Shown here piece after piece: positions 23,241 through 30,500 of a stretch of 32,980 bases of DNA. The stretch's first letter is position 1; every line of letters starts with the position of its first letter. The DNA is from an uncultured Clostridia bacterium (GTDB taxonomy: Bacteria; Bacillota; Clostridia; Lachnospirales; Lachnospiraceae). A program made the translations under genes and the position numbers. The notes beneath the pieces are model-generated. The model saw only the letters and a program-made list of their open reading frames with translations, did not search any database and was not told the DNA's origin. The stretch is taken from contig CAMVIN010000012.1 of the NCBI GenBank assembly GCA_947167565.1, positions 1-32,980 on the forward strand, in the 5' to 3' direction.

Positions 23241-24345
23241 TTAACTGTTCAGCCACTTCAGGTACGCATTCATGAACATGTCGATATCGCCATCCAGAAC
23301 CGCCGCAACATTCCCCGTCTCCGTATCTGTCCGATGATCTTTGACCATCGTGTACGGCTGCATGACATAGGAACGAATCTGGCTTCCCCAGCCAATCTCT
23401 TTTACCTCACCGCGAATGTCGGACTCCTTCTCCAGATTTTCCTGTTCGCGTAAAAGTAATAGTTTTGCCTTCAACATCTGCATCGCTTTATCCTTATTCA
23501 TGTGCTGGGAGCGCTCATTCTGGCACTGCACAACAATCCCGGTCGGATAATGCGTAATTCGGATTGCCGATGAGGTTTTATTGATGTGCTGTCCACCGGC
23601 TCCACTTGAACGATACGTAGCAATGCGGATATCGTCGTCATTTACTTCAATATCAATATCTTTTTCAATGTCCGGCATGACGTCACAGGACACAAAAGAT
23701 GTCTGCCGTTTCCCTGCCGCATTAAACGGAGAAATTCGTACCAATCGGTGTACTCCATGTTCACTCTTCAGATAACCGTATACATTCTCCCCGGAAATCT
23801 CCAGCGTGACGGATTTGAGCCCGGCCTCATCACCATCCAGTGAATCCAGGACTTTCACCGAATAACCGCGCTTATCTGCCCATCGCTCATACATACGGCA
23901 CAACATACTGGCCCAGTCACAACTCTCTGTTCCTCCTGCTCCGGCGTGAAGAGTCAGGATTGCATTTTCACTGTCATGCTCTCCCTTTAACATTGTCGTA
24001 ATGCGCAAATCGTCAAAATCTTTGCGGAATTCATCAAATTCCTGCTGAACCTCCGGAATCAACGACTCATCCCCTTCCTCATTCCCCATTTCAATGAGTG
24101 TCATGATGTCGTCATACGCCTCGCTCAGATGATCTGCGCGCTCCACAATATCCTTCAGTTCTTTGTTCTCCCGCATCGCCTCGCTTGCCTTATCGGCATC
24201 GTCCCAGAAGTCCGGAGCTTCCATATTGCGCTCCAGTTCTTCAATCCTTAACTTTTTCTCTGCTAAGTTAAAGTGAATCCCTTACTTCCAGAAGCGGCTT
24301 TTCAAAACTACTCAGTTCAATTCGGATGTTATCCAATTCAACCAC
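23241..24345 (-). CDS. prfB: Peptide chain release factor 2, programmed +1 frameshift at CUU UAA C
   Basis: Two overlapping frames encode 367 residues. GTG at 24345 (8 nt after AAGGTGG) opens a 25-codon frame (start MVELDNIRIEL, end VRDSL) ending in TAA at 24270-24268. Slipping +1 at CTT (24273-24271) skips base 24270 and continues NLAEKKLRIEELERN into the main frame. This aligns exactly with other RF2 proteins (in Bacillus, RGSL then the shift). TAAGG lies just upstream as internal Shine-Dalgarno. RF2 features follow: SPF in RISPFNAAGKRQ (stop recognition) and GGQ in SSGAGGQHINKTS (peptidyl hydrolysis). The in-frame stop is UAA where UGA is the usual choice. UAA is also read by RF1, so autoregulation should be weaker. 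Confidence 0.94.
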
Positions 24346-24385
24346 TTAAATCACCACCTTGTTTTATATTATATTTAATAGTCGT

Positions 24386-24430: not shown

Positions 24431-26966
24431 TTATCTGCCGCAGCAGTGTTTATACTTCTTACCGGAACCACAAGGACACGGATCATTTCGTCCCACTTTC
24501 TGCTCCTTGCGGACAATCGGTCCATTTGCCGAGTCATCTTTGTTGGTGCCGGTAACCTTAGCTACCTGCTCGCGCTCAACCTTTTCCTCTATGCGAACAT
24601 GCATGAGCATGCGCACAGTCTCCTCTCGAATCGATGCTGTCATATCGTTGAACATATCATATCCCTGCAGACGATATTCAACCACCGGATCTCTCTGTCC
24701 AAATGCCTGAAGCCCGATTCCCTGACGAAGCTGATCCATGTCATCGATATGATCCATCCAGCGGCTGTCTGTTGCCTTCAAGAGAACCACACGCTCAACT
24801 TCACGAATCTGCTCCTCCTCCGGGAACTCAGCCTCTTTTTTCTCGTATATCTCAAGTGCTTCTTCCTGCAGTTCCTCAATCAACTGCTTCTTTGTCATCC
24901 CCTCAAACCGCTCGCGGTCAAAAACAAGTGGCTTTACAGGAATCATCGGAATCAGAATCTCGTTCAGTTCTGCAAGATTCCACTCCTCTGGCTGTGTAAT
25001 CTCACCGATTACACTGTCCACGTATTTTTCAACAAGCTGCTTAATCATGAAAATAATGTCATCGCGCATGTTGTCGCCATCAAGTACCTTGCGTCTCTCG
25101 GCATAAATAATCTCACGCTGCTCATTGTTAATCTGATCATATTCGAGCAAGTTCTTACGAATCCCGTAGTTGTTGCCCTCGATCTTTTTCTGGGCGCGCT
25201 CAATCGCTTTCGTGAGCATGCGGTGCTGTATCTGTTCACCTTCCGGCATACCGAGCGAGTTGAACATCTGCATGAGATTCTGAGAACCAAACAGACGCAT
25301 CAAGTCATCTTCCAGCGAAATGTAGAACTTCGATTCACCCGGATCGCCCTGACGTCCGGCACGACCGCGCAGCTGATTGTCAATTCGTCTGGACTCATGT
25401 CGCTCTGTACCGATAATCTTGAGACCACCCAGCTCTTTTACTCCCTCACCGAGTTTGATATCCGTACCACGACCCGCCATGTTGGTGGCAATCGTGACAG
25501 CGCCCTTCTGTCCGGCATCCGCTACAATCTCCGCCTCCATTTCATGGAACTTCGCATTCAATACCTTGTGCGGTATTCCGCGCTTTTTCAGCATTCCGGA
25601 CAATTCCTCAGAGGCATCAATCGTAATTGTACCGACAAGCACCGGCTGACCTTTCTCATGGCTTCTCTCAATCTCTTCCACAATCGCATTCAGCTTCTCA
25701 CGTTTTGTCTTGTATACAGAATCCTCCAAGTCGATACGCTTCACCGGAAGGTTCGTCGGAACTTCCACAACGTCCATACCATAAATCTCGCGGAACTCCT
25801 TCTCCTCTGTGAGAGCTGTACCGGTCATACCACATTTTTTGTCATATTTATTAAAGAAGTTCTGGAACGTAATCGTAGCAAGTGTCTTGCTCTCTCTCTT
25901 AACCTTAACATGTTCCTTCGCCTCAATTGCCTGATGAAGTCCATCGGAATAACGTCTTCCCGGCATAATACGCCCGGTAAATTCATCAACAATCAATACC
26001 TGATCATCCTGAACAACATAATCTTTGTCCAGATGCATGAGCGCATGAGCTCTCAACGACAAGTTCACGCAGTGCTGAATCTCCAGATTCTCCGGGTCAG
26101 CCAGATTCTCCAGATGAAAGAACTTCTCCACCTTCTTAATACCCTGAGCCGTCAGATTGACCGTCTTCTCTTTTTCATTGGCAACATAATCGCCGGTCTC
26201 TTCGTTGTCCTCCTGCATGATAATGTCCATCTTGGACAACTCTTTTTCTGTTCCTTTTTTCAACTGGCGGACAAGATTGTCACACGCCTCGTAAATCTTC
26301 GTGGACTTTCCGCTGGAACCGGAAATAATAAGCGGTGTTCTCGCCTCATCAATGAGCACCGAATCGACCTCATCCACAATCGCATAGTGAAGGTCCCGCT
26401 GAACCAACTGTTCTTTATAGATGACCATGTTGTCTCTCAGGTAATCAAAACCAAGCTCATTGTTTGTCGCATACGTGATATCGCAATTATATGCCTCACG
26501 TCGCGCGTCATTGTCCATGCTGTTGAGAATCACGCCAACTTTCAATCCGAGAAATTCATGAATCTGTCCCATCCACTCCGCATCACGCTTTGCCAGATAG
26601 TCGTTGACCGTCACAATATGAACACCCTTGCCTTCCAAGGCATTCAGATATGCCGGCAAGGTGGACACAAGCGTCTTTCCCTCACCGGTACGCATTTCTG
26701 TAATACGCCCCTGATGAAGTATAACACCTGAGCCCGATTGTTCTCTTGGATGCCTCTCTCACGACTGCATACGCCTCCGGCAAAATGTCATCGAGCGTTG
26801 CTCCCTCGCTAAGACGCTTCTTGAATTCGTCTGTCTTCGCTTTCAACTCATCATCCGAGAGTTTCTCCATCTCCGGCTCCAACGCCTCGATTTTGTCTAC
26901 AATCGGAATCACACGCTTCACTTCGCGCTCGCTGTGCGTCCCTATCACCTTATCTAATAATCCCAT
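24431..26966 (-). pseudogene. secA: secA, preprotein translocase ATPase, interrupted by a deletion/frameshift
   Basis: The start is ATG at 26966 ([18 protein letters not shown]), with GGAG upstream. The first frame runs to a stop at 26682 and departs from SecA after [11 protein letters not shown]. The second frame picks up at [19 protein letters not shown] and continues to the normal C-terminus at 24431. Compared with SecA proteins, about nine residues (the HFDVQLIGG region with the Q motif) and two further bases are missing near 26725. That fits a 26-nt deletion between short GG repeats. Downstream everything is intact: Walker [46 protein letters not shown] and the C-terminal zinc motif [13 protein letters not shown]. 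Restored length would be about 853 residues. SecA is essential, so an assembly error or a second copy must be considered. Confidence 0.9.
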
Positions 26967-27053
26967 CTTTTCACTCTCCATTACATATTCTTGGGTATCA
27001 ATTTACTCTATATCAAGGCAAAATGTCACTGCGGACGATTACTGCCCCATAGT

Positions 27054-29087: not shown

Positions 29088-30500
29088 CTATCGCTTTATA
29101 AAATCTTCTCTATTCAAATCTTTTTCATATCTGAGTTCTTTCCCACTCGCATCCACACTGAATAACACATGACTAGTCTCACTTACTTCTCCCTTGCGAA
29201 TCTCAATCTCTGTGTCAAAATACAGCCGACCTCCGGAACTTCCACAAAATTCTATAGAACCACAATATTTTAAAGTCGTCTCATCTGCCACTTTTTCATC
29301 AACCAAAAGTTGTCTCAATTTTTCATCCGACACAATACAGGAAAAAGTTGAGCTATCATAGTCCCGAAGATAAAATTCCTTCGTCTCCTCCTCTGACACA
29401 GAGAACAGAATTTTCCTTTCACCCTTTCCTACGGTATGGTAATAACCATCCTCAATTAAAAAAGGACTAATATCACCAGTCTCTTCATCCTCATCAATTT
29501 CCACCACTGCGGACTCATCTTTCCACAATTTTTCCCATTTCATTGTGTTCAGATTTTGAGACCATAAGCTCTGTCCACCGTTTTTATCAATTACGCTAAC
29601 AAAAATCTCATCGCCATCAATAGACTCAGAAACCATATCACAATAAAAATCTTCTTCTGAACTCTCTATTGTTTTCCCAAAGAACTTCTCCTTGAGCAAT
29701 TTCCCATTTTCCCTCTCATATCGAAAATAGACCGTTCCCCTGCTCGAAGCACCTATCACATAGTCGGAGTCCACATATATATCAAAATGTTCCTCTAACT
29801 TCACGGACAACTTCATGGAAAAAAGGAGTTTCTGCTTCTCTTTTTTTATTACGTCGTTGCCATTTTTTACCTTTTTTAATGGAATTTCATAAAAATCATA
29901 CTGTCTTTTCTTTTTCTCCCTGTTATAATAGCGGTCATAATAAACAAGGGCATTGTCATCTGCGTACAAATATTCATAAGTACGGTAATGCACCCCGTCT
30001 TGTGGAAATTCTACATTCCCGCACACTTTGTCATCCAAAGTTTTTTGATAGAATCCTCTTGGATCGTCCTCGGAATCGTACATATCCTCATAAAAATTTG
30101 TCGAATTTTCCAGTGCGTTGGCAGACAGAGAAGTCGTGCCGAGAAAACCACTCATATTCCTTTCCTCATTTTCACCATCCTCTATAATCACCCCATCATA
30201 ATACTCGGAAACTCTCTTGCCGGAGGCCGTCATCTTCACCCCCGACTTACTCCTCTTATATTTTACTTTCTTGTGTACCATCTTCGCACTATCTGTCTGA
30301 TTTTCCGACTCCTTTCCGGTGTCATCTTCACCGTCTGACTCTATCGCCTCCCCACTGACCACATTGTCTCCGCTCACTGCCTCTGCCACAGCACTACCGC
30401 TTGAAGTACCGCCAACACCTGCTGTATTGTCCCACGTCCCGCATCCCGCAAGACTCACTGCCATCATCGCCGCAAAAAAAAACGCTGAAAATCTTCTCAT
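29088..30500 (-). CDS. Large lipoprotein, probable beta-propeller, function unknown
   Basis: This is a 470-residue protein. The ATG at 30500 is 8 nt after GGAGG. The lipobox VSLAGC puts the Cys at 20. Residues of about 25-75 are a low-complexity linker with SGSAV, AVSGD and VVSGE units, then an acidic patch. A basic stretch (HKKVKYKRSKSGVK) follows. From about residue 150 the sequence alternates short beta strands with YDRYYNRE, FDIYVDSDYVIGAS, VYFRYERENGKLL and DIDGDEIF-like turns, as in DUF5050/WD-like propellers. No catalytic motif is seen. No terminator is visible after its stop. The gene diverges from cysK. Confidence 0.75.
   Translation of the reverse strand: MRRFSAFFFAAMMAVSLAGCGTWDNTAGVGGTSSGSAVAEAVSGDNVVSGEAIESDGEDDTGKESENQTDSAKMVHKKVKYKRSKSGVKMTASGKRVSEYYDGVIIEDGENEERNMSGFLGTTSLSANALENSTNFYEDMYDSEDDPRGFYQKTLDDKVCGNVEFPQDGVHYRTYEYLYADDNALVYYDRYYNREKKKRQYDFYEIPLKKVKNGNDVIKKEKQKLLFSMKLSVKLEEHFDIYVDSDYVIGASSRGTVYFRYERENGKLLKEKFFGKTIESSEEDFYCDMVSESIDGDEIFVSVIDKNGGQSLWSQNLNTMKWEKLWKDESAVVEIDEDEETGDISPFLIEDGYYHTVGKGERKILFSVSEEETKEFYLRDYDSSTFSCIVSDEKLRQLLVDEKVADETTLKYCGSIEFCGSSGGRLYFDTEIEIRKGEVSETSHVLFSVDASGKELRYEKDLNREDFIKR

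Follow-up and report, generated by a model that had tools for sequence, protein, structure and literature searches.

The locus described here is closest to bacterial SecA (NCBIfam PRK12904 / TIGR00963), and its break is best compared with the indel errors of draft and metagenome assemblies. As in other bacteria, the window (the whole stretch of DNA analysed, contig C12 of the draft genome G000, 32,980 bases) carries all SecA Pfam domains in order, with hpf upstream and prfB downstream of secA. It differs in that the nine residues ahead of Walker A are missing and the frame is broken in the recorded sequence. Isolated frame-breaking indels in conserved genes, several per draft, are also what assembly errors look like. 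The usual ones are one-base homopolymer errors, whereas the lesions of 26 nt and 10 nt in the window's assembly exceed this size.

The divided secA locus

The G000 draft consists of 271 contigs totalling 3,079,021 bases (95.27% complete, 0.18% contaminated). According to the ORF list and Pfam matches, the minus-strand gene order in the window is a gene with no Pfam match, hpf, an acyltransferase gene, secA and prfB. The acyltransferase-family gene (PF01757, 27079..28143, minus strand) is situated between hpf and secA, and no Pfam match was found for a 470-aa ORF (29088..30500, minus strand) whose start resembles that of a lipoprotein.

The whole secA locus spans 26981..24431 on the minus strand. 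Its N-terminal fragment (26682..26981, minus strand) is a 99-aa ORF matching SecA_DEAD positions 2-80 (E 6.8e-20); the start that agrees with relatives is the ATG at 26966, and the ORF terminates in a TGA outside the secA frame. The C-terminal open frame (24431..26755, minus strand; matched by PF07517, PF01043, PF21090, PF07516 and PF02810) runs for 765 codons from the junction without a stop, and its first ATG, at 26695, gives a 754-aa ORF. Matches to SecA_DEAD positions 80-290 and to the SecA domains that follow fall in this frame, which contains the Walker A, preprotein-binding, P-loop, wing/scaffold and SEC-C parts. PF01043, PF07516 and PF21090 (the preprotein cross-linking, wing/scaffold and second motor domains) are above cut-off, and the SEC-C zinc-binding motif lies at the C terminus (PF02810, E 2e-10). 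The SecA DEAD motor domain (PF07517) is thus divided between two frames rather than held in one, as it is in SecA. The intact secA of a same-genus genome, G036, clears the SecA equivalog cut-offs.

An earlier note on this DNA, made from the sequence by eye, had described two secA frames separated by a deletion of about 26 nt with loss of the frame, and had regarded the rest of the gene as intact. The ORFs, the two SecA_DEAD halves and the alignment bear out the former, and the open C frame with all later SecA domains matched bears out the latter. The same note placed the break in 26682..26740 with the frames meeting at about 26725. The break itself stands, and its position is corrected to a point: the 26-nt gap falls between plus-strand bases 26728 and 26729 (26728..26729 as a minus-strand feature) in an alignment of 20 loci. 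These are 20 of the 34 nearest loci, the 14 opposite-strand loci being left out of the alignment and covered by the comparison of 109 loci given below. GG repeats, which the earlier note had pointed out, flank the junction in the alignment of related loci and leave slight slack in the placement.

The deletion removes nine residues together with the reading frame. The lost residues align with residues 80-88 of the solved SecA chain 7xha_A, immediately preceding Walker A, and are present in 109/109 related loci, so that the claim of nine conserved residues lost just before Walker A is sustained. This stretch is presumably what the label 'Q motif' refers to; a literature search for the Q motif together with SecA found nothing. 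A contig-edge artefact was considered and rejected, with the junction interior to C12 and zero N in the 1.46 Mb of G000 looked at.

The adjoining prfB (24361..23241, minus strand), downstream of secA, has a programmed +1 shift site at about 24265-24285, which reads CTT TAA C in place of the usual CTT TGA C. The same-genus prfB loci (n=29) have TAA in 13 cases and TGA in none, while 16 have no site, the region being read through by an open frame. Loci from beyond the genus carry TGA in 54 cases and TAA in 3. Over 98 distinct loci including the window, with three further loci set aside as duplicates, the counts are TGA 54, TAA 17 and no site 27. UAA is recognised by both release factors, according to PMC13245932, so weaker autoregulation by release factor 2 alone would be expected, and the TAA site may be a stage toward the loss of prfB autoregulation. 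A UAA version of the prfB site was not found among the titles that a literature search listed, and we do not claim it as unpublished.

Related secA loci and the search for another SecA

All 109 related secA loci have the N and C parts in a single frame, separated by exactly nine residues, and the 26-nt deletion was found in none of the 109, although the loci are partly non-independent, since at least three pairs are identical sequences from two collections. A deletion common to the relatives is thereby ruled out. Lachnospiraceae metagenome-assembled genomes supply the closest related secA among named records (best 89% identity over 753 aa), and a same-genus copy reaches 95% identity to the window copy over 753 aa. 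Which relative is nearest changes along the gene: the N part is closest to L016 (94%), the next 200 residues to L010, L012 and L033 (97.5%), and the C end to L004 (94%). The L004 secA itself is 97% and 94% identical in three C segments and 81% in the first 79 residues; recombination or fast change in its N part is possible.

The earlier note had called for a search of the remaining genome for a second secA. In G000 the PF07517 profile search matched only the two halves in the window, and a protein search detected elsewhere only two short C-terminal SEC-C-type matches. The note had concluded that either another SecA exists or the break is an assembly error. For the first option, the searches of G000 turned up no further SecA motor domain, and the second is favoured by the three further frame changes described below. 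A second secA might be absent from the draft, which is 95.27% complete.

Across a family sample of 200 genomes, a SecA_DEAD match was detected in 194 and none in 6, among the matches listed. On the best score per genome, and for the motor domain only, 187 of the 194 score E 1e-118 or better, corresponding to an unbroken motor domain; the seven weaker-scoring genomes are G000 and six others. We re-inspected these six and three more genomes, and two adjacent SecA frames on one contig were found in none of them. What the nine show instead is SecA cut at a contig edge or scattered over separate contigs, a lack of any true SecA (G090) or a full frame (G080).

Frame breaks elsewhere in the assembly

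We surveyed 80 pieces of G000 (1,460,946 bases, about half of the genome) and 60 pieces of the same-genus G036 (1,200,000 bases, 72,000 masked). The reference set was 852 non-overlapping G036 ORFs, of which 223 were testable in G000. The first flags (25/269 in G000 and 19/258 in the reverse direction) were inflated by antisense ORFs and start-choice stops; removal of overlapping ORFs left 13/223 and 9/221 flagged genes, with 4 and 0 internal frame changes, and the others have in-frame stops close to the ends of the reference ORFs. Internal frame changes thus affect 4/223 conserved genes in G000 versus 0/221 in the reciprocal G036 survey (one-sided p 0.06, two-sided 0.12), a difference that is suggestive only and comes from an unequal comparison, G036 being better assembled (30 contigs, 99% complete). 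With 219/223 tested genes unbroken, the G000 assembly is not rotten in general.

The earlier note had taken the region to be otherwise clean; other parts of the assembly hold three more frame-broken conserved genes, so this view does not extend to the draft. These breaks lie at about 5062-5104 in L238 (G000:C46), about 14256 in L132 (G000:C20) and about 19118-19146 in L134 (G000:C1:40001-60000). The genes affected are a PBP2/MrdA-like gene with one base missing, a SpoVD-like gene with ten bases missing and an ABC-2 permease gene with one additional base within a T run.

The PBP2-like gene, for which the best family model is pbp2_mrdA (444.5 bits, slightly below the cut-off of 455), is full length and in a single frame in 17 of 22 same-genus genomes, in contig-edge pieces in 2/22 and frame-broken in G000 only. 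It was undetected in 3/22, and these genomes are 68%, 84% and 79% complete. The end of the SpoVD-like gene is reached in 11 of the 22 genomes and the gene is cut in 1; the remaining 10/22 have no close copy, which makes it dispensable. We considered both broken penicillin-binding-protein genes as essential and dropped this for the same reason. In G000 a related gene adjoining the SpoVD-like gene has a 648-codon open frame. The ABC-2 permease may be dispensable as well. SecA and PBP2 are essential proteins, so half of the four broken genes, namely secA and the PBP2-like gene, belong to essential kinds.

Origin of the secA gap

Two lesions of essential kinds and two others in half a draft, with no substitute SecA detected, suggest that the secA gap most probably stems from a consensus or assembly error in the draft, or from the DNA of an inviable cell. 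We infer that an error would have arisen in sequencing or assembly rather than in the cell. The secA in the window would then be an ordinary housekeeping gene, from a bacterium related to Lachnospiraceae, with a recorded sequence short of 26 nt, and living cells of the source species would carry an intact single-frame secA. Several observations weigh against an error. A gap of 26 nt bounded by nothing more than short repeats would be unusual for k-mer overlap errors and would need reads, gap filling or a library chimera as its source; 219/223 tested genes are unbroken and the contrast to G036 is weak (one-sided p 0.06); and the SpoVD-like and permease breaks could be real mutations, these genes being dispensable or possibly so. 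The GG repeats on either side of the junction would fit a real deletion of 26 nt through slippage or microhomology, whether in part of the population, in a lineage that is dying out or in a cell sustained by a SecA absent from the draft, and the completeness of 95.27% leaves room for a missed second secA. Drafts without secA do occur, as in the 6/200 family genomes that lack a SecA_DEAD match among the matches listed. We nevertheless consider such a deletion unlikely: G000 shows no second SecA motor domain, the gap occurs in 0/109 related loci, and breaks affect several conserved genes of this assembly.

If the recorded secA were functional, its product being made as separate chains of 99 aa and 754 aa or joined by ribosomal frameshifting, this SecA would be without the nine residues. 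The ATG of the C frame at 26695 falls within the end of the N frame and the adjoining prfB does have a programmed frameshift, but no frameshift signal is apparent at the secA junction, and the nine residues just ahead of Walker A are kept in 109/109 loci. The ATG is explained by coding, the Met that it encodes being conserved ahead of Walker A. A functional split seems barely credible. Equally improbable is that secA is a chimera put together from two strains or species, as the change of the closest relative along the gene (L016; L010, L012 and L033; L004) could suggest; every part of secA is close to one genus, rate differences and recombination could yield the same pattern, and a homologous join would preserve the register without the loss of 26 nt.

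The preferred reading being an error or the DNA of an inviable cell, the locus carries a warning that calls of pseudogenes or gene loss in essential genes from a single draft need to be weighed against the frame-break rate of the assembly. If the deletion were real, the need for the pre-Walker A segment in SecA would be questioned. It is very doubtful that a cell lives with a SecA without this stretch, whether made as a pair of polypeptides or backed by an unseen SecA elsewhere; if a living cell did have a SecA without the segment, it would be a natural motor ATPase working without a conserved segment of its nucleotide site.
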